Positions 47,290 to 62,431 of a stretch of DNA of 64,000 nt are shown here, one piece after another; within the stretch, counting starts at the first letter, position 1, and each line of letters opens with the position of its first letter. Source of the stretch: an uncultured Pelagibacteraceae bacterium (lineage in GTDB: Bacteria > Pseudomonadota > Alphaproteobacteria > Pelagibacterales > Pelagibacteraceae); contig CACNLV010000001.1 in assembly GCA_902621345.1 (NCBI GenBank), forward strand, positions 496,001 through 560,000, read 5' to 3'. The notes beneath the pieces were generated by a model. That model worked only from the letters and a program-made list of their open reading frames with translations. It did no database searches and was not told where the DNA came from. The position numbers and the translations under genes are program-made.

Positions 47290-47298
47290 TTATTTTAC
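47281..47298. repeat. 18-bp palindrome across the two convergent stop codons
   Basis: GTAAAATAA and TTATTTTAC meet exactly at the boundary of the manC-like gene and the convergent kinase gene. Each half encodes the last Val-Lys-stop of its protein. The symmetry makes the two 3' ends identical for nine bases. It could be coincidence or a minimal bidirectional end signal. Confidence 0.6.
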
Positions 47299-48174
47299 AA
47301 GAAAATTCACTTTTTTATTTGATAGATTTAAATGAATTTTTTTATATGAACCAAAATTATCTCCATCAATTTGAACAGGTATCAAATCATTTCCATCAAT
47401 TGTAATGTTTTGTGAATAAGTAGTAATAACATTTTTATTTTTACTTAAATCACCATTAAGAATTATTAAAAATATAGAATATAATAAATTGATCCTAGTT
47501 AAATCCTTAAATATATATGTGACTATTTTATTTTCAAAAATATTTGTTTTATTTATTTTATGATGTCCAGCGTAATATTTGGTATTTGAAGATAATATCC
47601 AGTCTGCTTGATAAAATTGTCCATCAAAAGTAACATTTAATTTTTTATTATTCATAAACAAGAAATATTGAAAACCTTTGATACCAAATATCACTTTTCC
47701 AAGAATTTTTTTAATTTTTGAATTAATTGAATGAACAATTTTTGCATCCCATCCTATACCAGCCATTAAAAAGAAATAATTCTCGTTAATTTTTACAAGA
47801 TTAGAGGATTTATAATTATTAGAAATCAATACATTGACTATATCATCAATCTTTTTATTCATTGATAATTCAGCTTGCAGTAAATTTGCAGTCCCAGCAG
47901 GTATATAGCCTATAGCAAAATCGTCTTTAAAATTAAAATCATTCTTTATTAATTCATTAATTGCAAAAGAAACAGATCCATCTCCACCAGCAACTATTAA
48001 TCGATCATAATTTTTTTGATTAAAGTTTTTAAAAATTTTCTTAGCTTGATTTATTGTTTTGGTCTCAAAGTATTCTACTGAATTATTTTCTTTTAACTTA
48101 GATAAAACCCTATTTATGAATTTTGATTTTCTTCCAGAGGAAGAGTTTTGATTGTAAATTAAACAATACAACAT
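47290..48174 (-). CDS. Diacylglycerol kinase family protein (YegS/LCB5-like)
   Basis: The 294-residue protein belongs to the soluble lipid kinase family with a DAGK catalytic domain. Visible motifs are NQNSSSGRKSK at the N-terminus, the nucleotide-binding VAGGDGSVSFAINEL, IGYIPAGTANLLQAEL and AGIGWDAKIV. The likely reaction is phosphorylation of diacylglycerol to phosphatidic acid. It diverges from the plcP-like gene, whose product would release diacylglycerol, and a minus-strand Pho-box candidate lies 66 bases upstream of its start. Exact substrate specificity cannot be read from the sequence. Confidence 0.88.
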   Translation of the reverse strand: MLYCLIYNQNSSSGRKSKFINRVLSKLKENNSVEYFETKTINQAKKIFKNFNQKNYDRLIVAGGDGSVSFAINELIKNDFNFKDDFAIGYIPAGTANLLQAELSMNKKIDDIVNVLISNNYKSSNLVKINENYFFLMAGIGWDAKIVHSINSKIKKILGKVIFGIKGFQYFLFMNNKKLNVTFDGQFYQADWILSSNTKYYAGHHKINKTNIFENKIVTYIFKDLTRINLLYSIFLIILNGDLSKNKNVITTYSQNITIDGNDLIPVQIDGDNFGSYKKIHLNLSNKKVNFLVK

Positions 48175-48193
48175 AATTAATCCTTAAAAAATT

Positions 48194-48211
48194 TTTAACA
48201 AATTTGTAACA
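48194..48211 (+). promoter_or_regulatory. Pho box upstream of plcP-like gene
   Basis: TTTAACA-AATT-TGTAACA is a direct repeat with 11-base period. Its two units are identical to the first two units before pstS. It ends 61 bases before the plcP-like start. PhoB dimers bind such 7-4-7 tandem repeats. Confidence 0.78.
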
Positions 48212-48240
48212 TTTAAATGAAATAAGAAATACATGATTCG

Positions 48241-48258
48241 TGTTACAGTTGTATTAAA
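48241..48258 (-). promoter_or_regulatory. Pho box candidate upstream of diacylglycerol kinase gene
   Basis: Read on the minus strand the sequence is TTTAATA-CAAC-TGTAACA, one mismatch from the plcP-side repeat. It ends 66 bases before the kinase start, nearly the same distance as the opposing box from plcP. A third, weak unit (TCATGTA) follows in phase. Confidence 0.6.
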
Positions 48259-48272
48259 ATATAGGCCTTTAA

Positions 48273-49085
48273 ATGCCTAACATACTTAAATACAAAAGCA
48301 TTTTTATTTCTGATGTGCATTTGGGTACCAAGGGTTGTCAGGCGAAAAAACTTTTAGAGTTTTTTAAAAACTCAAGATCTGAAAATCTTTATCTTGTAGG
48401 AGACATTATAGATGTCTGGGAAATGCAAAAAAGTTTTTTTTGGCCTCAAGAACATAATGATGTAATCCAAAAAATTTTAAGAAAAGCAAGACATGGCACT
48501 AAAGTTTTCTATATTATGGGCAACCATGATGAAATGTTAAGAAAATTTATTCCAATGAATTTTGGTGACATCCATATGGTTAATAGAGTTATTCATGAGA
48601 CAAATGCTGGAAAAAAATATGTTGTTGTTCATGGTGATGCTTGGGATGGTGTTATGAAACATGCTAAATGGCTATCTAAACTTGGATCAATAGCTTACAA
48701 TTTATTGTTACAAATAAATGTAATAATTAATTTCTTTAGAAGGTTGAGAGGAAAAGAATATTGGTCTCTTGCAAAATATTTAAAATATAAGGTTAAGAAC
48801 GCCGTCAAATATATTGGTGAATATGAAAAAACACTCTCAGATTATGCAAAAAGAAAAAAATTTGATGGAATAATTTGTGGCCATATCCATCATGCTGAGG
48901 ATAGAGATTTTAATGGGGTCAATTATTTAAATTGTGGAGACTGGGTAGAATCTTGCACTGCATTAGCCGAAAATTACGATGGTAGCTTTGAAATATTATA
49001 TTGGGATAAAATAAGAGAACAATATTTAGACACTCAAGAAATAATTAAACCTATTAAAAATGAAGACTTAAAAAAAGCTTCGTAA
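48273..49085 (+). CDS. plcP: PlcP-like metallophosphoesterase (phospholipase C, lipid renovation)
   Basis: The 270-residue protein is a calcineurin-like phosphoesterase related to LpxH. Metal-site motifs are FISDVHLG (Asp14, His16), LVGDIIDVWE (Asp44), IMGNHDEM (Asn84, His85), VVVHGDAWDG and ICGHIHHAE. LpxI already covers the LpxH step here. The adjacent lipid glycosyltransferase and Pho box match the PlcP-Agt pair that SAR11 and rhizobia use to turn phospholipids into diacylglycerol and then glycolipids under phosphate starvation (Carini et al. 2015; Sebastian et al. 2016). The function is inferred from family and context. Confidence 0.85.
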   Translation: MPNILKYKSIFISDVHLGTKGCQAKKLLEFFKNSRSENLYLVGDIIDVWEMQKSFFWPQEHNDVIQKILRKARHGTKVFYIMGNHDEMLRKFIPMNFGDIHMVNRVIHETNAGKKYVVVHGDAWDGVMKHAKWLSKLGSIAYNLLLQINVIINFFRRLRGKEYWSLAKYLKYKVKNAVKYIGEYEKTLSDYAKRKKFDGIICGHIHHAEDRDFNGVNYLNCGDWVESCTALAENYDGSFEILYWDKIREQYLDTQEIIKPIKNEDLKKAS

Positions 49086-49088
49086 TTA

Positions 49089-50096
49089 ATGAAAATTTTA
49101 ATCGCAACAGATGCATATTTTCCACAAGTAAATGGTGTTGTAAGAACCTTGCATGAAACAGGTAAAATTTTAAAAGAACAAGGTCATAGAATAGAATATA
49201 TCACACCAGAATTATTTTTAACTTTTCCGATGCCAAAATATAATGAAATTAGAATATCTATTAATGTTTGGCCAAGAGTTGGTAGCTTAATAAAGAAAAT
49301 AAAACCTGATGCAATTCATATAGCTACTGAAGGTCCTATAGGGACTATGGCAAGAAGATATTGTTTGAAGAATAAACTAAAGTTTACCACAAGTTTTCAT
49401 ACAAGATTTGATAAATATCTTAAGCTTTACTTTCCTATTATACCTGCAAAATGGGCTGAAAAATTCTTAGCAAACTTTCATAACAAGGCTGAGAGAATCT
49501 TAGTAACAACAGAATCTATGAGAAAAGAATTAATCGATATAGGTATAGATAATAATAAAATGATTACTTGGACAAGAGGAGGCAATCATGGAGCTTTTAA
49601 GAGTCCGAAAAAAATTGATTTACCACATAAAAGACCGATTTGGATTTATGTTGGAAGAGTTGCAGTTGAAAAAAACATAAGAGCTTTTTTAGAATGTGAT
49701 TTAGAGGGTACAAAAATGATAATAGGAAAGGGACCTGATTTAAAAAAATTAAAAAAAGAATTTCCTAAAGATATTTTTTTAGGAGAAAAAACAAACGGTG
49801 AATTAGCGTCTCATTTTGCATCTTCCGATGTTTTTGTATTTCCAAGTAAAACAGATACATTTGGAATTGTAGTTTGTGAGTCTTTAAATTGCGGAACACC
49901 TGTAGCTGCTTATCCTGTTCCAGGTCCTAAAGATATATTTGAGGGTTCCAAAATAAATTGTTTAGATAATGATCTTAAAGTTTCAGCTCATAAAGCTTTG
50001 AAAGTTAATAGAAATGATTGTCTTGAATTTGCAAAAAAATTCACTTGGGAAGAAACAGCAAAAATATTTTTTAACAATATTTCACCAAATCATTAG
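49089..50096 (+). CDS. GT4 glycosyltransferase, probable diacylglycerol glycosyltransferase (Agt-like)
   Basis: The 335-residue protein has the two-domain GT4 fold. The N-terminus, LIATDAYFPQVNGVVRTLHET, resembles SqdX/DgdA-type lipid glycosyltransferases. The C-terminal donor site includes YVGRVAVEKNIRAFL, FVFPSKTDTFGIVVCESLNCG and the family EX7E. It starts three bases after the plcP-like gene, so it should receive the diacylglycerol that PlcP makes and yield glucosyl or glucuronosyl diacylglycerol. The sugar used cannot be told from sequence. Confidence 0.85.
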   Translation: MKILIATDAYFPQVNGVVRTLHETGKILKEQGHRIEYITPELFLTFPMPKYNEIRISINVWPRVGSLIKKIKPDAIHIATEGPIGTMARRYCLKNKLKFTTSFHTRFDKYLKLYFPIIPAKWAEKFLANFHNKAERILVTTESMRKELIDIGIDNNKMITWTRGGNHGAFKSPKKIDLPHKRPIWIYVGRVAVEKNIRAFLECDLEGTKMIIGKGPDLKKLKKEFPKDIFLGEKTNGELASHFASSDVFVFPSKTDTFGIVVCESLNCGTPVAAYPVPGPKDIFEGSKINCLDNDLKVSAHKALKVNRNDCLEFAKKFTWEETAKIFFNNISPNH

Positions 50097-50161: not shown

Positions 50162-51307
50162 ATGGAATATTTCATCATTCTACTTATAGTTGTTATAATT
50201 TATCTCCTCTATTTACTTAATCAAAAAAAAAACAAATCAATAAATACTGCTACAATAATTAATAAAAGAGAGGAAAAAACCAAAAGAGTAATTATTGATG
50301 AGCTTGAGGATCAATTTTTTGCATTAAATAAATTTAACATAATTAAATATGCCAATCCAAGTGCATTAAAAAGATTTGGAAGTAATTTAATTGATAAAAA
50401 CATATCTTCTATAATTCGAAAACCAGAATTAATAGAAAATATTGAAAAAGCTATTGTTGAAAATAAAACAAAAAATATTGACATTGAAATAGACCTCCCA
50501 TCATATCAATTCTATAAAATTTATATTATTCCTGGCCCAACTCATTTGTTTACTGAACCAGACTCTGTTGTGTTATTTTTAAAAGATTTTACTGAAATTA
50601 CAAAAGCACAAAAATTTAAAACTGATTTTGTAGCAAATGTAAGCCATGAATTAAGAACACCTTTAATGGCAATCAAAGGATCACTAGAAACAATTGAGGG
50701 CCCAGCGTCTGATGATGAAAAGGCTAAAAAAAAATTTATGAAAATAATGACTGATCAATCAAATAGAATGGAAAATTTAATTAATGATCTTTTAATACTC
50801 ACAAGAATTGAATTAGAGGAACACATAAGGCCAAACTCTTTAGTTGATATAAATGATCTTTTCAAAACAATCATCAGTAATTTTGAGATTATTTTAAAAA
50901 GAAAGAAATTAAATATTAATTTATCTCTCGCCAATCCAACAGTTGTTATTGGAGATGAAAAAAAATTACAAACTGTTTTTTCTAATCTTTTAGATAATGC
51001 AATTAAGTATTCAAAGGAAAATAAGTCTATTTTTATATCAAGCAAAATTAGCGATGGTAAATTGTTAGAAAAAAATTTTATGATCAGTATTAAAGACGAA
51101 GGTGTTGGCATTCCTCAAAGATATATTTCTAGAATTACAGAAAGATTTTTTAGGGTAGATCTTGAACAAAGTAACAAGGTTGGTGGAACCGGTTTAGGAT
51201 TAGCTATTGTTAAACATATAGTTACTCAACATCGTGGACACTATGAGATTCTAAGTGAGGAAAACCAAGGAACTGAAATTCAAATTTATTTACCAGCGAA
51301 AACTTAA
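50162..51307 (+). CDS. phoR: Phosphate regulon sensor histidine kinase PhoR
   Basis: PhoR phosphorylates PhoB when phosphate is scarce, under the control of PstSCAB and PhoU. The 381-residue protein has a single N-terminal membrane segment (residues 3-20), a divergent PAS-like region (about 40-150), the H-box FVANVSHELRTPLMAIKG with His162, and the ATPase motifs LLDNAIKYSKEN, DEGVGIP and GGTGLGLAIVKHIV. It lacks a large periplasmic domain, as in E. coli PhoR. It is separated from phoB by the whole pst operon. Confidence 0.92.
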   Translation: MEYFIILLIVVIIYLLYLLNQKKNKSINTATIINKREEKTKRVIIDELEDQFFALNKFNIIKYANPSALKRFGSNLIDKNISSIIRKPELIENIEKAIVENKTKNIDIEIDLPSYQFYKIYIIPGPTHLFTEPDSVVLFLKDFTEITKAQKFKTDFVANVSHELRTPLMAIKGSLETIEGPASDDEKAKKKFMKIMTDQSNRMENLINDLLILTRIELEEHIRPNSLVDINDLFKTIISNFEIILKRKKLNINLSLANPTVVIGDEKKLQTVFSNLLDNAIKYSKENKSIFISSKISDGKLLEKNFMISIKDEGVGIPQRYISRITERFFRVDLEQSNKVGGTGLGLAIVKHIVTQHRGHYEILSEENQGTEIQIYLPAKT

Positions 51308-51347
51308 ATTTAAAAAATATTATATTGTAATAGTTTTAGAAGGTTTT

Positions 51348-51365
51348 TTTAACAATTCTTTACTT
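51348..51365 (+). promoter_or_regulatory. Pho box candidate upstream of unknown secreted protein gene
   Basis: TTTAACA-ATTC-TTTACTT keeps the 11-base spacing and resembles TGTAACA-ATTC-TGTAATA before pstS, including the same ATTC spacer. The second unit is degenerate. It ends 32 bases before the ATG, closer than the other boxes. Confidence 0.5.
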
Positions 51366-51397
51366 GATTAATGTTAATCTTTTAATTAATTTTTTAT

Positions 51398-52006
51398 ATG
51401 GTTAAAATATTTAAAAATATTTTGATTTTTGCTTTTTTATTAAGCTCTATAACAACAAGTGTTTTTTCTAAAGATATAACAACATTATTAAGAAATCAGC
51501 AACTTACAGTTTTTGATATTGGAATTTTTAGATTAGAGGCAGATTTGAAAACTTCATATCCTTCTATTAAAGATCATTTAGAAGTTACTGAAGCTGAATT
51601 TTATACAGACGTAGTTACCTCGTATTCTAAAAATTCAATTGATTTAATTGTTTCTGTTCCTATGAATAGAAATCTCAAGAAGGAAAATTATTTTTCAGAT
51701 TCTTTTAGATGTAGGAATATTTTTAATTCTGTAAGAGATTTTTTATTGAGGAATGAAAATTTGAGTAATTATAGATATACTATGGCTACAAGCTATTTAA
51801 CCTCTATATTTTCAACCCCAAGTTCATGGCCAAGCTGGAGATATGATGAAGAAATTAGAGAGGAATTAGTAAACTTAGTAAAACTAGAAATAACTTTACG
51901 TCCAACCAAAGAACTAGCTCTTAATGAACAGGTAAACCCTGTTTCATGTATTGGTGGCTTAGAAACTGATATTGATCAAATAATTATATCAAAAAAATAC
52001 AACTAA
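51398..52006 (+). CDS. Unrecognised secreted protein between phoR and pstS
   Basis: I do not recognise a family. The 202-residue protein has a clear signal peptide (IFKNILIFAFLLSSITTSVFS, cleavage near residue 24), so it is likely periplasmic. The mature part has exactly two Cys residues (105 and 184), which could form one disulfide. There is a Trp/Pro-rich patch, STPSSWPSWRYDEEI, and no membrane segment, lipobox or barrel-like C-terminus. A Pho-box candidate precedes it, and pstS with its own Pho box follows 109 bases later. Context suggests a role in phosphate starvation, but the activity is unknown. Confidence 0.85.
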   Translation: MVKIFKNILIFAFLLSSITTSVFSKDITTLLRNQQLTVFDIGIFRLEADLKTSYPSIKDHLEVTEAEFYTDVVTSYSKNSIDLIVSVPMNRNLKKENYFSDSFRCRNIFNSVRDFLLRNENLSNYRYTMATSYLTSIFSTPSSWPSWRYDEEIREELVNLVKLEITLRPTKELALNEQVNPVSCIGGLETDIDQIIISKKYN

Positions 52007-52017
52007 AAAGTTACCTT

Positions 52018-52046
52018 TTTAACAAAAGTGTAACAATTCTGTAATA
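52018..52046 (+). promoter_or_regulatory. Triple Pho box upstream of pstS
   Basis: Three seven-base units TTTAACA, TGTAACA and TGTAATA start at 52018, 52029 and 52040, exactly 11 bases apart, with four-base spacers AAAG and ATTC. A weak fourth unit may precede them. This is the classical PhoB tandem-site pattern, ending 69 bases before the pstS start. Confidence 0.88.
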
Positions 52047-52115: not shown

Positions 52116-53147
52116 ATGAAAAAACTAACTATAGTAATTGCTTCTTTAGTTGCACTTTCAATTGCAACTGTTGCTCAAGCAAGAGATCAAATTAAGATAG
52201 TTGGTTCTTCTACAGTATTCCCTTATGCAACAGTTGTTGCTGAAAGATTTGGTGGTTCAGGATTTAAAACTCCTGTAATCGAGTCTACTGGTACTGGTGG
52301 TGGAGCTAAACTATTCTGTGCTGGTGTAGGTGAACAACATCCAGATATTACAAATGCATCAAGAGCTATGAAAGATAAAGAAAAAGCTCTATGTAAGAAA
52401 AATGGTGTTAATGATATCGTTGAGATCGTAATTGGTAATGATGGTATTACATTAGCTTACAGCAAAGATGCAAAACCAGTAAACTTTACTAAAGAACAAT
52501 TATATTTAGCACTTGCTGCTCATACAGTTGTTGATGGTAAATTAGTTCCAAATATTTATAAAACTTGGGACCAAATTGACCCTAGCTTACCAAAACAAAA
52601 AATTTCAGTGATGATCCCACCAGGAACATCAGGAACTAGAGATGCTTGGAATTCTTTAGTAATGAAAAAAGGTATGACTAAAGAAGCTAAAGCTCTTTAT
52701 AAAGCTGGTTTTGAAGCTGGAAATAAAAAATACAAAAAACCTCAAAAACTTTACAGAGAAGATGGTGCTGCTATTGAAGTTGGAGAAAACGATAGTTTAA
52801 TCATCCAAAAGTTAACTCAAGATAAAGAAATGTTTGGTTTCTTTGGTTTCAGTTATTTCTTAGCTGCAAAAGATAAATTGCAAGCAGCAAGTATTGATGG
52901 TGGACAACCGTCATTAAAGTCTATTCAAGACTACAGTTATGCTGTTGCTAGACCTTTATTCTTCTACGTGAAAAAAGCACACGTTGGAGTAATTCCAGGC
53001 TTACATGAGTTTGTGAAAGAATTCACAACTAAGAAAGCTATTGGAAAAGGGGGTTACTTAGCAGACATTGGTTTAGTGCCATTGGACTCTAAGTTGTATA
53101 AAACAACTAGAACTAATGCTACGAAGCTAGTTGCTATGGGTAATTAA
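52116..53147 (+). CDS. pstS: Phosphate ABC transporter, phosphate-binding protein PstS
   Basis: PstS captures phosphate in the periplasm for the Pst importer. The 343-residue protein has a signal peptide (KKLTIVIASLVALSIATVAQA), then IKIVGSSTVFPYATVVAERF and the phosphate-site motifs STGTGGGAKLFCAGVG and PPGTSGTRDAWNSLV. Two nearby Cys residues (in LFCAGVG and ALCKKNG) could form a disulfide. Strong ribosome-binding sequence (GAAAGGAT), less AT-biased codons and a terminator after it point to high inducible expression. Confidence 0.97.
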   Translation: MKKLTIVIASLVALSIATVAQARDQIKIVGSSTVFPYATVVAERFGGSGFKTPVIESTGTGGGAKLFCAGVGEQHPDITNASRAMKDKEKALCKKNGVNDIVEIVIGNDGITLAYSKDAKPVNFTKEQLYLALAAHTVVDGKLVPNIYKTWDQIDPSLPKQKISVMIPPGTSGTRDAWNSLVMKKGMTKEAKALYKAGFEAGNKKYKKPQKLYREDGAAIEVGENDSLIIQKLTQDKEMFGFFGFSYFLAAKDKLQAASIDGGQPSLKSIQDYSYAVARPLFFYVKKAHVGVIPGLHEFVKEFTTKKAIGKGGYLADIGLVPLDSKLYKTTRTNATKLVAMGN

Positions 53148-53238: not shown

Positions 53239-54624
53239 GTGAACTTAATATTATTTACATTTATTGTTCTTCTAGGTTTCACAAGCTATTATTTTGGACG
53301 CAAAAAAGCATATACAATTCAATCTACAAAAAAAAGATTAACCGCATTACCACAATTTTATGGTTATTATCTTGCAATCTGGTGTGCAATACCAGCCTTT
53401 ATAATTTTTTCATTATGGGCAATTTTTGAGCCCACAATTGTAAAACTATTAATCTTAAGTGATTATTCAAATCAAGGTTATCTTGATGATGAATTAAATT
53501 TATTATACGAAAAATCAAAAGCATTGTCTCGAGGGCAATTCACTGGAGAAATTACACCTTTTATTGAAGCTTCAGCTGAAAAATATTTAAGTCTTCGATC
53601 AATAGCTCAAAGTTCAAAAGTTGTTATAGTATTATCTGCAATTATTGCCTCTGTTGCTTATGCGTATAAAAGAATTTCATCTAATTCTAGAACAAGAGAA
53701 CCAGTTGAAAAATTTTTGAAAGCAGTTTTATTTACAGCTTCTTTAGCTGCAATATTAACTACTGTTGGAATAGTTTTCTCACTTATATTTCAAACTATAG
53801 ATTTTTTTAAAGTAATTCCATTATTTGATTTTGTCTTTGGAACTCACTGGTATCCAGCAAAAGCTTTTGTTAGAGACTCTTCTGAGGCTTTAGATCCGAC
53901 AATGTATTCAGATACTTTTGGAGCAGTCCCTATTTTTGCAGGTACTTTTTTTATTGCATTTATTGCTATGTGCGTTGCTATCCCAATTGGATTAATGAGT
54001 GGAATTTATTTAGCTGAATATGCATCAACTAAAGTTAGACAATATGCAAAACCATTAATTGAAATTTTAGCTGGTATACCAACAGTTGTTTATGGTTTTT
54101 TTGCTGCCCTAACTGTTGGACCATTTTTGAAAGAATTAGGAACTTCAATGGGTCTTGAAGTTTCAGCTGAAAGTGCTTTAGCAGCAGGAGGGGTAATGGG
54201 TATTATGATTATACCATTTATTTCAAGTTTAAGTGACGATGTAATTACAAGTGTGCCTCAAAGTTTAAGAGATGGAAGTTACGCTATGGGAGCAACTAAA
54301 TCAGAAACAATTAAGAGAGTTATTTTTCCCGCGGCATTGCCGGGGATAGTTGGATCTATTTTACTTGGTGTTTCAAGAGCTATTGGAGAAACAATGATAG
54401 TTGTTATGGCCTCTGGTTTAGCTGCTAATTTAACTTTAAATCCTTTAGAGTCTACTTCAACGATTACAGCTCAAATTGTAGTTATTCTAATTGGTGACCA
54501 AGCTTTTGGCGACCCAAAAACGCAAGCTGCTTTTGCTTTAGGTATGTCATTATTTTTAGTAACACTTTGTTTAAATATTGTGGCCTTGAGAGTAGTTAAA
54601 AAATATAGAGAAAAATATGAATAA
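53239..54624 (+). CDS. pstC: Phosphate ABC transporter permease PstC
   Basis: PstC is one of two inner-membrane channels of the Pst importer. The 461-residue protein starts at GTG after a good AAGGAGA site. It has an N-terminal extension with extra membrane helices, as in other alphaproteobacterial PstC proteins. The transport domain spans about residues 225-455, with AGIPTVVYGFFAAL and the coupling loop VPQSLRDGSYAMGATKSETI. It overlaps pstA by eight bases. Confidence 0.94.
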   Translation: MNLILFTFIVLLGFTSYYFGRKKAYTIQSTKKRLTALPQFYGYYLAIWCAIPAFIIFSLWAIFEPTIVKLLILSDYSNQGYLDDELNLLYEKSKALSRGQFTGEITPFIEASAEKYLSLRSIAQSSKVVIVLSAIIASVAYAYKRISSNSRTREPVEKFLKAVLFTASLAAILTTVGIVFSLIFQTIDFFKVIPLFDFVFGTHWYPAKAFVRDSSEALDPTMYSDTFGAVPIFAGTFFIAFIAMCVAIPIGLMSGIYLAEYASTKVRQYAKPLIEILAGIPTVVYGFFAALTVGPFLKELGTSMGLEVSAESALAAGGVMGIMIIPFISSLSDDVITSVPQSLRDGSYAMGATKSETIKRVIFPAALPGIVGSILLGVSRAIGETMIVVMASGLAANLTLNPLESTSTITAQIVVILIGDQAFGDPKTQAAFALGMSLFLVTLCLNIVALRVVKKYREKYE

Positions 54625-55885
54625 AAATAAAGAACAATTATTAAATAAAAGATATAAAGCTGAACAGCGATTTCGCTTATACGGTCTGAGTGCAATTTTT
54701 ATGGCACTTTTATTTTTAACAATCTTTATTTTTAAAATTTTTTCAACTGGCTATTCAGCTTTTCAAAAAACATGGCTTATTGTTCCAGTAACTTTCGATG
54801 CTGAATTAATGATGTTAGACCAAAATCCTTCTAAAGAAGATTTACAGGACGCTGATTATTACGATATAGCATTAAAATCAATGGCTGATTTAGATCCAAA
54901 CGCCAATGAAGATCAAGAAAATGAATTGAAGAGAATGGTGTCTTATTTTTTTGAAAAAGAAATTAAAAATGAACTTTTAAATGACCCTAATTTAATAGGA
55001 AAAACAAAGGAAGTTTATCTAACTGCTTCAGATGATTTAGACCAAGTCTTTAAAGGAAATTATCCAAGAGATTTACCTGAAGACCAAAGAAGAGTAAGCG
55101 ATTATCAATTAAAAATTTTTGATCAACTTGTTGCAAATGGTAAGGTTGAAAGTAAATTTAATATAAGTTTTTTTACAAATGCTGACTCAAGAGAAGCTGA
55201 GCTAGCTGGAATAGCAAGTTCATTTATGGGCTCAATTTTTTCTATACTTGTTTGTTTAATGATAGCTTTTCCTGTTGCGGTTCTAGCTGCAATCTATCTT
55301 GAAGAATTTGCCCCTAAAAATAGATTTACTGATTTTATTGAAGTTAATATAAACAACTTAGCAGCGGTTCCATCTATAGTTTTTGGTCTATTAGGGTTAG
55401 GAGTTTTATTGGCTATATTTCATTTACCAAGGTCTACCCCATTAGTTGGAGGTATCACTTTGTCCTTAATGACTTTACCAACAATAATTATAGCTGCTAG
55501 AGCATCTTTAAAAGCAGTTCCACCAAGTATAAGAGAGGCAGCACTTGCTATGGGAGCAAGTCGAATGCAAACCACAATGCATCATACAGTCCCTCTTTCT
55601 ATGCCTGGCACGTTATCAGGAACAATAATTGGTTTAGCTCAAGCTTTAGGAGAAACTGCACCCTTAATTTTAATTGGAATGGTTGCTTTTGTTAACACGA
55701 TACCTGGATCACCCATGGATCCTGCTGCAAGCTTACCAGTTCAAATTTATATTTGGGCTGAAAGTGCTGAAAGGGGATTTGTAGAAAAAGTTTCGGCATG
55801 TATAATGGTCTTACTTGGCTTTTTAATAATAATGAATTTATTTGCCCAAATAATAAGACATAAGTTTGAGAAAAAATGGAGTTAA
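54617..55885 (+). CDS. pstA: Phosphate ABC transporter permease PstA
   Basis: PstA is the second Pst channel subunit. The 422-residue protein carries a long N-terminal region with one membrane span and a periplasmic domain (about residues 45-190), typical of the alphaproteobacterial form. The transport domain follows, with [20 protein letters not shown] and the coupling loop [19 protein letters not shown]. It is coupled to pstC by an overlap, and pstB follows by one base. Confidence 0.94.
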
Positions 55886-55886
55886 A

Positions 55887-56642
55887 ATGATAAAGATTAA
55901 AGCAAAAGATGTTGATGTTTTTTATGGAAAAAAACAAGCGCTCTTTAATATAAGTTTAGATATTGAGGAAAATCAAGTAACGGCATTAATTGGTCCATCT
56001 GGTTGTGGTAAATCAACTTTCCTAAGATGTCTTAATAGAATGAATGATGTAATTGATATCTGTAGTGTTAAAGGAGAAATTTTAATTAATGATTTTAATA
56101 TCAATGATAAAAGTTGTGATGTCGTAAGACTAAGAGAAAAAATTGGTATGGTTTTTCAAAAACCCAATCCTTTCCCAAAGACTTTATATGAAAATGTGTC
56201 TTACGGTCCAACAATTCATGGTATGGCTCAATCAAAACAAGAAATGGATGAAATTGTTGAAACTAGTTTGAAAAAGGCTGCACTATGGGAAGAGGTAAAA
56301 GATAGGTTGCATGAACCTGGAACTGGATTATCTGGAGGACAACAGCAAAGACTTTGTATTGCTAGAGCGATTTCTGTAACACCTGAAGTTATATTAATGG
56401 ATGAACCTTGTTCAGCATTAGATCCAATAGCAACAGCACAAATTGAAGAATTGATTGATGAGTTAAAAAAAGAGCACACAATAATAATTGTAACTCATTC
56501 TATGGCTCAAGCAGCACGTGTTTCTCAAAATACAGGTTTTTTTCATTTAGGTCGATTGATTGAACATGGATCTACTGATAAAATATTTAAGAATCCTGAT
56601 AATAAAAAAACGCAAGATTATATAACAGGGAGGTTTGGATAA
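55887..56642 (+). CDS. pstB: Phosphate ABC transporter ATP-binding protein PstB
   Basis: PstB powers phosphate import and takes part in PhoR signalling. The 251-residue protein has Walker [30 protein letters not shown], which is specific to PstB, signature [15 protein letters not shown] and Walker [14 protein letters not shown]. The ORF track begins at a TTG inside pstA. I choose the ATG at 55887 because GGAG lies five bases upstream and [14 protein letters not shown] is the normal PstB start. The stop overlaps phoU by one base. Confidence 0.97.
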
Positions 56643-57349
56643 TGTCTGAAGCACCACATACAGTCAAATCTTACGAAGAAGAACTAAAAAATCTTAATGC
56701 TAATATAATTAAAATGGGAAGTGCATGTGAAGATTCTTTAGGTAAAGCAATTCAAGCCATTACAACAAGAGATAATAATATTGCAGAAGCTGTTATTCAA
56801 GAAGATGAAAAAATAGATAAATATGAGACTTTAATTGAACAGCAAGTTGTGAATTTAATTGCTTTAAGACAACCTATGGCAATTGATTTAAGAGAGACAG
56901 TAACGGCTTTGAAAATGTCTTCAGATTTAGAAAGAATAGGTGATTTAGCAAAAAATATATCCAAGAGAACACTTTTGCTTAACGAAAATCTTCCAAAGAA
57001 CTTGGTAGACTCATTGAATAGAGTATCTACCAATGTTCAAAAACAATTAAAATCAACATTAGATGCTTATCTAGAAAGATCTGCGCCAATGGCAGTAAAT
57101 GTTTGGGAAGGTGATGAGCAAATAGATGATCTAACAAATCTTTGTATGCAAGAAGTTATAAAATATCTTAAAGAAAATGAAAAAAATTTAGAAGATGGAA
57201 CCCATTTATTGTTTGTAACTAAAAACATAGAGCGTATTGGTGATCATACTACAAATGTTGCAGAACAAGTTTATTATTTAGTTAAAGGCGAATATTTAGA
57301 AGGTGATAGACCCAAGGGAACAGAGCCAATTGTAACCGGAGAAAAATGA
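56642..57349 (+). CDS. phoU: Phosphate signalling complex protein PhoU
   Basis: PhoU links Pst occupancy to PhoR and limits phosphate uptake. The 235-residue protein has two three-helix PhoU repeats. Each carries the acidic metal-binding motif: LKMSSDLERIGDLAKNISKR in the first and VTKNIERIGDHTTNVAEQVYY in the second. It lies between pstB and phoB with one-base and three-base junctions, the usual order. Confidence 0.97.
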   Translation: MSEAPHTVKSYEEELKNLNANIIKMGSACEDSLGKAIQAITTRDNNIAEAVIQEDEKIDKYETLIEQQVVNLIALRQPMAIDLRETVTALKMSSDLERIGDLAKNISKRTLLLNENLPKNLVDSLNRVSTNVQKQLKSTLDAYLERSAPMAVNVWEGDEQIDDLTNLCMQEVIKYLKENEKNLEDGTHLLFVTKNIERIGDHTTNVAEQVYYLVKGEYLEGDRPKGTEPIVTGEK

Positions 57350-57352
57350 TTT

Positions 57353-58036
57353 ATGTCAGCTCATGTTTTCATAGCTGAAGATGAAGCATCAATTGTTAGT
57401 TTGTTAAAGTACAATCTTGAAAAAGAAGGTTATAAAGTCAGTCATTCAGAAAATGGAGAAGATGCTCTTAAACAAATAAAATTAAAACAGCCAGATTTAA
57501 TATTAATGGATTGGATGTTACCAGAATTATCTGGTGTTGAAATTTGTAAAAACTTAAAAAAAGATAATAAGTTTAATGATATTCCTGTCATTATGTTAAC
57601 TGCAAAGGGGGAGGAAGAAGACAAATTAAAAGCATTTGATACAGGTGCAGATGATTATGTAACTAAACCTTTTAGTCAAAAAGAATTGAATGCTAGAATT
57701 AAATCTTTATTGAGAAGATCTAAACCTCAATCATCATCAGACATTGTAGAATTTACTGATTTAAAAATAGATCGGATTACAAAAAGAGTTTATAGAAAAG
57801 ATAAAGAAATTACTTTGGGTCCAACTGAATTTAAACTCTTAGATTTTTTTATCAAAAATCCAAAAAGAGTTTATTCAAGAGAACAACTCTTAAACAATGT
57901 TTGGGGAGAAAATATATATGTTGAGTCTAGAACAGTTGATGTTCATATTAGAAGATTAAGACAAGCAATTAACATACAAAATACAAAACCTTTAATTAGA
58001 ACAGTAAGATCAGCTGGTTATTCTTTAGAATCTTGA
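57353..58036 (+). CDS. phoB: Phosphate regulon response regulator PhoB
   Basis: PhoB activates phosphate-starvation genes by binding Pho boxes. The 227-residue protein has a receiver domain with Asp53 (LILMDWMLPELSG) and Lys in DDYVTKPFS. A C-terminal winged-helix OmpR-type domain follows (TLGPTEFKLLDFFIKNPKRVYSREQLLNNVWG and VDVHIRRLRQAI). The Pho boxes found in this window are its expected targets. Its 3' end overlaps the convergent sixA by 19 bases. Confidence 0.97.
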   Translation: MSAHVFIAEDEASIVSLLKYNLEKEGYKVSHSENGEDALKQIKLKQPDLILMDWMLPELSGVEICKNLKKDNKFNDIPVIMLTAKGEEEDKLKAFDTGADDYVTKPFSQKELNARIKSLLRRSKPQSSSDIVEFTDLKIDRITKRVYRKDKEITLGPTEFKLLDFFIKNPKRVYSREQLLNNVWGENIYVESRTVDVHIRRLRQAINIQNTKPLIRTVRSAGYSLES

Positions 58037-62210: not shown

Positions 62211-62249
62211 ATTAAATTTAATTTTATTTTTAATTGAGTGATATTTTTT

Positions 62250-62267
62250 TGTAACATTATTTTAATT
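62250..62267 (+). promoter_or_regulatory. Weak Pho box candidate after ppx
   Basis: TGTAACA-TTAT-TTTAATT has one perfect unit and one degenerate unit at the right spacing. It ends 63 bases before a pair of strong hairpins, a distance like that between the other boxes and their genes. One good unit in AT-rich DNA could be chance. Confidence 0.3.
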
Positions 62268-62329
62268 TAAATTCATTTAACTTTAACAATAAGTAAATAA
62301 TTTTGTAATTTAGTTTATGTATAAAGCAC

Positions 62330-62420
62330 CATCAAAGTTTAAATATTCATTATTTCTTCCCCTGTTTAAATTTTGATGATTAACTACTTTCTCCCTTCTC
62401 TTAAATGAGAAGGGAGAAAG
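62330..62420. other. Two strong adjacent hairpins, candidate structured RNA
   Basis: The first has a 14-pair stem CATCAAAGTTTAAA/TTTAAATTTTGATG (one G-U) around a 21-base loop containing TTCTTCCCC. The second, nine bases later, is a perfect 14-pair stem CTTTCTCCCTTCTC/GAGAAGGGAGAAAG around TTAAAT. The spacer from 62211 to 62431 holds no ORF. The second hairpin lies 11 bases past the stop of the small minus-strand gene and may form its 3' end. No T-tract follows on either strand. The first hairpin is then unexplained. Confidence 0.5.
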
Positions 62421-62431
62421 ACGATTTGGAA

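Follow-up and report, generated by a model that had tools for sequence, protein, structure and literature searches.

The window, a stretch of 64,000 nucleotides from an uncultured Pelagibacteraceae bacterium, carries a phosphate island in the order dgk, plcP, agt, phoR, X, pstSCAB, phoU and phoB, followed by sixA and ppk, where X denotes the gene for a secreted protein between phoR and pstS. The island and its regulatory sites comprise the following features.

47290..48174, - strand: dgk, diacylglycerol kinase family (Pfam DAGK_cat, 1e-23)
48182..48210, + strand: strong Pho box before plcP, at the head of the plcP-agt-phoR-X run (second-best triple in the window, 16.0 bits; pair at 48193, 17.4 bits)
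48242..48259, - strand: strong Pho-box pair before the divergent dgk (17.1 bits)
48273..49085, + strand: plcP-like metallophosphoesterase of lipid remodelling (Pfam Metallophos)
49089..50096, + strand: agt-like GT4 glycolipid glycosyltransferase (Pfam Glyco_transf_4; homologue of GTcp of PMC8231724)
50162..51307, + strand: phoR histidine kinase, with a lone TM helix at the N terminus and no periplasmic domain (Pfam HisKA and HATPase_c; TM scan)
51347..51364, + strand: weak Pho-box-like pair before X, TTTTAAC aatt CTTTACT, N4 spacer (8.3 bits, P ~0.03 per 110 nt)
51398..52006, + strand: X, secreted two-cysteine protein of 202 aa (ORF; homologues in Pelagibacterales and Azospirillaceae)
51398..51469, + strand: predicted signal peptide of X, residues 1-24, probable cleavage between VFS and KD (rule-based: hydrophobic core KD 2.5, AXA-like site)
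51710..51712, + strand: codon of Cys105 of X (invariant in three alignments)
51947..51949, + strand: codon of Cys184 of X (invariant in three alignments)
52017..52045, + strand: triple Pho box before pstS, TTTTAAC aaaa GTGTAAC aatt CTGTAAT (26.6 bits, the top triple in the window; kept in 23 pst islands)
52116..53147, + strand: pstS of the X-linked type (Pfam PBP_like_2; 8.6e-186 to PDB 9jwy)
53239..58036, + strand: pstC, pstA, pstB, phoU and phoB (ORFs; Pfam for pstC; gene order kept in relatives)

Much of this arrangement is known. The SAR11 pstSCAB-phoU-phoB-phoR genes sit in a flexible genomic island whose divergent PstS versions have been described in outline (PMC7318151), and both the PlcP-Agt lipid-remodelling pair (PMC4796936) and the GTcp glycosyltransferase (PMC8231724) have been reported. 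The window has its genes, its genomic position and the split between PstS versions in common with these accounts. However, the literature that we searched on the SAR11 phosphate island contained neither a description nor a name for the gene between phoR and pstS, and X as the gene that sets the two versions apart is not previously described there. The other version in the window's genus consists of phoR-pstSCAB-phoU-phoB only, with an empty phoR-pstS gap and a PstS about 65% identical to the window type. An X-containing island is also carried by an HTCC7211-like genome (G107), which agrees with HTCC7211 in the lengths of pstS (1,035 bp) and of the glycosyltransferase gene (1,005 bp); the corresponding X orthologue has 205 aa. 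The structure of CpPstS, the PstS of HTCC7211, has been solved (PDB 9JWY; PMC12421899). CpPstS is periplasmic, encoded beside X and a close relative of the window PstS; X, in contrast, is no periplasmic binding protein and has no sequence in common with it. In islands of HTCC7211-like genomes and of other genera, an olsB/olsA-like acyltransferase pair (ornithine lipid) separates agt from phoR (L145 7917-9481, L153 2532-4096, L154 7454-9017 and L160 6990-8570).

A preliminary description of this DNA had reported an open reading frame between phoR and pstS that encodes a signal peptide, a 178-residue mature domain and two cysteines, and each of these features was recovered. The frame is intact and lies 90 nt 3' of phoR and 109 nt 5' of pstS, with all three genes on the + strand. 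It is not a chance ORF, as stop-free homologues occur in 182 of 397 Pelagibacterales genomes and dN/dS values of 0.09-0.29 place the gene under purifying selection. Cleavage is predicted after residue 24, and rule-based prediction found a signal peptide at the start of all 24 family members examined. The first cysteine of the window protein is C105; a lipobox cysteine is absent from it and from other SAR11 members, and X is predicted to be a soluble periplasmic protein. The mature proteins have exactly the two conserved cysteines (C105 and C184 in the window), which are invariant from SAR11 to Azospirillaceae, and no further cysteine was found outside the signal peptides. The pair may form a disulfide.

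X also belongs to no known family, and the preliminary description could not place it in one either. Profile searches of Pfam, NCBIfam and PDB, started from X alone or from alignments of 15-24 family members, returned nothing above chance: the window protein matched no family at E <= 1 and its relatives gave chance-level matches only, while the neighbouring PstS matches PBP_like_2 at 9e-42. Its homologues nevertheless form a coherent group, with one copy per genome as a rule, which reaches SAR11 family f2 (at ~31% identity), 32 of 82 genomes of another order (Azospirillaceae; the named plasmid matches are from Azospirillum) and two further alphaproteobacterial families. No relatives were found in a viral contig collection, so there is no sign that X is phage cargo. 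Across the 24-member alignment nine residues are invariant (L31, G42, C105, L116, Y133, F138, L163, C184 and L188) and D40 and D49 are nearly so. X is therefore shown to found a new and conserved family, marked by an export signal and an invariant pair of cysteines.

The same alignment bears on the suggestion, made in the preliminary description, that X captures phosphate or phosphate esters in the periplasm. The location in the phosphate island speaks for an additional capture protein, as does the large extracellular phosphate store of unknown make-up in SAR11 cells (PMC4525184). However, this store has been estimated at 7e7 phosphates per cell (PMC4525184), far beyond the stoichiometric capacity of one protein. 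The family alignment has no invariant Arg, Lys, Ser, Thr or His, and the mature window protein is acidic (pI 5.2). With Y133 the only invariant residue of the basic, hydroxyl or His classes, the family is unlikely to have a phosphate site or a catalytic centre conserved among its members. X matches neither the type 2 periplasmic binding proteins nor any other phosphate-binding family, and we consider a capture role very unlikely. Specific candidates of this kind were also rejected. A PstS-like type 2 binding protein calls for a two-lobed match of ~300 aa, compared with the 178 residues of mature X; the nine invariant residues differ from the conserved phosphate-binding Ser/Thr/Gly set of PstS; and a periplasmic phosphatase or phosphodiesterase (PhoA, PhoX, PhoD or calcineurin-like) is contradicted by the missing family match and the lack of an invariant His.

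We also examined the fold of X with an AlphaFold model built from a shallow alignment of 35 near-identical sequences. The model is of moderate quality (pLDDT 68, pTM 0.69) and consists of helices, a beta hairpin, a long helix with C81 (mature numbering, equivalent to C105), more helices and three C-terminal strands, the middle one of which holds C160 (equivalent to C184). Fold searches of this model against PDB and the BFVD viral library gave no significant match. Among the low-ranking entries, PA3611 (3npd) and the T2SS pilotin EpsS (6i2v) are, like X, small exported alpha/beta proteins, but with TM-scores of 0.20-0.33, rmsd of 9.5-12.7 A and E ~1. These values (TM below 0.35), from a model of moderate confidence, speak against a pilotin or PA3611-type fold, and the model is too uncertain for a claim of a new fold.

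The distribution of X within the window's genus follows the version of the island. Of 138 genomes with window-type PstS, 135 carry X, vs. 0 of 44 with the other type (Fisher p = 4.5e-39, a significance inflated by relatedness, since the genomes are not independent counts), and X is absent from pst-less genomes of the genus. X is thus common to one version of the SAR11 pst island, the extended one, and missing from the other. In the three window-type genomes without X, pstS lies within 131 nt of the contig end, and these contigs are cut. The agreement across genera g1, g8 and g9 is stronger evidence for the link between X and PstS than the genus-wide p value: the X-linked window-type PstS proteins all fall in one clade with 100/100 support, and the X tree repeats the split of g8/g9 from g1 seen in the PstS tree. 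In 80/80 close loci pstS lies downstream of X, and in those whose contig reaches far enough phoR lies upstream (76/76). The phoR-X-pstS neighbourhood recurs in other genera and among the more distant members of the window's genus. The tie between X and phoR-pstS anticipated from its position therefore stands within Pelagibacteraceae. However, this linkage is not absolute. X and the pst cluster are ~24 kb apart in one genome (G377), and in another (G154) X follows phoR with pstS ~16 kb distant.

Outside Pelagibacteraceae the picture differs. One or two same-strand alpha/beta hydrolases lie directly upstream of X in 30/30 Azospirillaceae loci (L165-L194), and no pho genes were found near X in these loci. 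In SAR11 family f2 the neighbours are AtuA-like genes or LepA, and an acyl-CoA ligase is among the neighbours outside Pelagibacteraceae; as read from the sequence, X lies by a pcm-type methyltransferase in G533 and near a large acyltransferase/acyl-ligase protein in G548. Orthologues are thus scattered away from pho genes beyond Pelagibacteraceae and tied to phoR-pstS within it, so that phosphate is not the common theme of the X family, whose ancestral role was not specific to it. It may be that X is a general alphaproteobacterial periplasmic housekeeping protein, unrelated to phosphate, which entered the island by linkage. The loci away from pho genes in Azospirillaceae, the two further families and family f2 would agree with this. 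However, X is absent from 44/44 other-type islands as well as the pst-less genomes, and it is therefore not a housekeeping gene in the window's genus. It has, moreover, been kept beside phoR or pstS across several genera with small streamlined genomes. We regard a general function carried by linkage as possible but doubtful.

The lipid genes of the island suggest another function. X could be a periplasmic factor that maintains the envelope when glycolipids and ornithine lipids replace phospholipids in phosphate starvation, and hence a partner of plcP, agt and olsBA and not of Pst. Both plcP and agt were present in 19/20 X-positive vs. 3/42 X-negative Pelagibacteraceae genomes tested (p = 7e-12), and these two genes head the gene run of X under a strong Pho box. 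The joining of olsB/olsA-like genes to the cluster in HTCC7211-like genomes, and the hydrolases that precede X in all 30 Azospirillaceae loci, are also consistent with such a role. However, X and the lipid genes can be separated. In G101 X adjoins pstS in a cluster that lacks plcP and agt and has phoR at its opposite end; G266 is a natural recombinant that combines plcP-agt of the X-containing island with phoR-pstS of the X-less one; and G172 has plcP-agt at a separate place with neither phoR nor X alongside. X and plcP also occur apart in the sister family f2, where five genomes have plcP but not X and two have X but not plcP. Because of G101, G266 and G172, X tracks the phoR/pstS version better than it does the lipid genes, and a tight link with lipid remodelling is broken. 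An envelope function is, in our view, a doubtful alternative of the same standing as a general one. The recombinant island of G266 lies at L244 3586-7814.

Comparison of the window with another genome (G029) revealed that X itself has been exchanged. The two PstS proteins are 100% identical vs. 73% for X, and a segment from mid-phoR to the end of X (~50750-52010) differs by ~27% in DNA while its flanks are mostly 90-100% identical. Since dS of X is saturated and dN/dS low, this divergence is due to recombination, and fast evolution or positive selection of X was ruled out on the same grounds. The exchange of the 3' half of phoR together with X while PstS stayed identical indicates that X is not closely tailored to a single PstS sequence. 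The joint segment could instead mean that X modulates the PhoR sensor kinase, as could the position of X directly after phoR, whose 3' end it overlaps by 17 nt in G154, G359 and G344. However, in the window and in most relatives PhoR has just one TM helix, at its N terminus, and lacks a periplasmic domain, which argues against direct periplasmic contact as a route to the PhoR modulation considered in the preliminary description. The exchanged part of PhoR is cytoplasmic, and the arrangement in G101 puts X by pstS with phoR at the other end. Modulation of PhoR is accordingly highly improbable.

Regulation of the island was examined with a Pho-box matrix derived from 23 pstS promoters, with which the window was scanned for pairs and triples. 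The triple Pho box claimed for pstS proved to be the top site of the window (52017, 26.6 bits). The Pho-box-like sequence claimed for X fared less well: a pair is present at 51347, but its score is 8.3 bits, where the boxes of pstS and plcP reach 17-19; it is 20th among the pairs of the window and not widely conserved, occurring at about -51 in most, not all, members of the genus and not in other genera. A strong Pho box of its own was thus ruled out for X, and the weakness of this site together with its absence from other genera makes co-expression of X with the plcP-agt-phoR run, or with phoR, probable. The divergent dgk-plcP intergenic region (48182-48259) has strong Pho boxes facing both ways, each of 17 bits, which fits phosphate control of lipid remodelling.

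The scan also drew attention to a candidate Pho-regulated small RNA elsewhere in the window (62249-62425, + strand), in which Pho-box-like repeats (62249-62266 and 62281-62309) precede a pair of strong hairpins (62330-62420, fold z -6.85). The interval contains no ORF and gave no credible Rfam match. The element is kept in 12 genomes with the window-type island, with compensatory changes in 10/27 pairs, and occupies two island sites, either after ppx or between manC and dgk; it was not found in four genomes searched that have the other island type. A convergent ORF of 68-81 aa adjoins it, so the element could instead serve the opposite strand as a 3' end or terminator.

Taken together, we tentatively favour the possibility that X is a periplasmic accessory of the Pst machinery in the extended low-phosphate SAR11 pst island, acting by protein contact. 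This reading ranks above an envelope factor or a linked general protein, which in turn rank above phosphate capture and, last, PhoR modulation. X would be induced in phosphate starvation, by read-through from the plcP Pho box or from its own weak site, and exported by Sec. In the periplasm it may fold into a small alpha/beta domain, modelled as predicted helices followed by a beta-beta-alpha-alpha-alpha-beta-beta-beta order and stapled by a putative C105-C184 disulfide. Since PhoR has no periplasmic domain, PstS or PstCA is a plausible partner of a periplasmic X. Contact could be with PstS, or with PstCA on its periplasmic side, where X might, for instance, act as a stabiliser or help in docking; its role would be neither phosphate binding nor catalysis. 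An older, general periplasmic role in Alphaproteobacteria may have been recruited to Pst in SAR11. In support of an accessory role are the co-inheritance of X with one PstS/PhoR version, its neighbours, the recombinants, the overlap with phoR, the signal peptides, the conserved cysteines and the lack of a basic or catalytic residue set. Against it, SAR11 genomes with the other island have a complete Pst system without X, X is separated from the cluster in G377 and from pstS in G154, it has other neighbours outside Pelagibacteraceae, and it has been exchanged while pstS remained identical. It seems unlikely that X goes further, as founder of a family of disulfide-stapled periplasmic proteins that SAR11 has made into a dedicated partner of one PstS/PstCA version, raising phosphate capture at nanomolar supply. 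We know of no accessory subunit of this kind for a bacterial Pst transporter, and such a partner, if real, would be a new one.

SAR11 are among the most abundant bacteria of the ocean, and phosphate supply is limiting in subtropical gyres. X, which has no Pfam or NCBIfam name, separates the two versions of the SAR11 phosphate island almost without exception in the genus. If it does assist the Pst transporter, X would be a missing part of high-affinity oceanic phosphate uptake; if it does not, it is still of use in metagenomes as a gene that cleanly marks the extended low-phosphate island.
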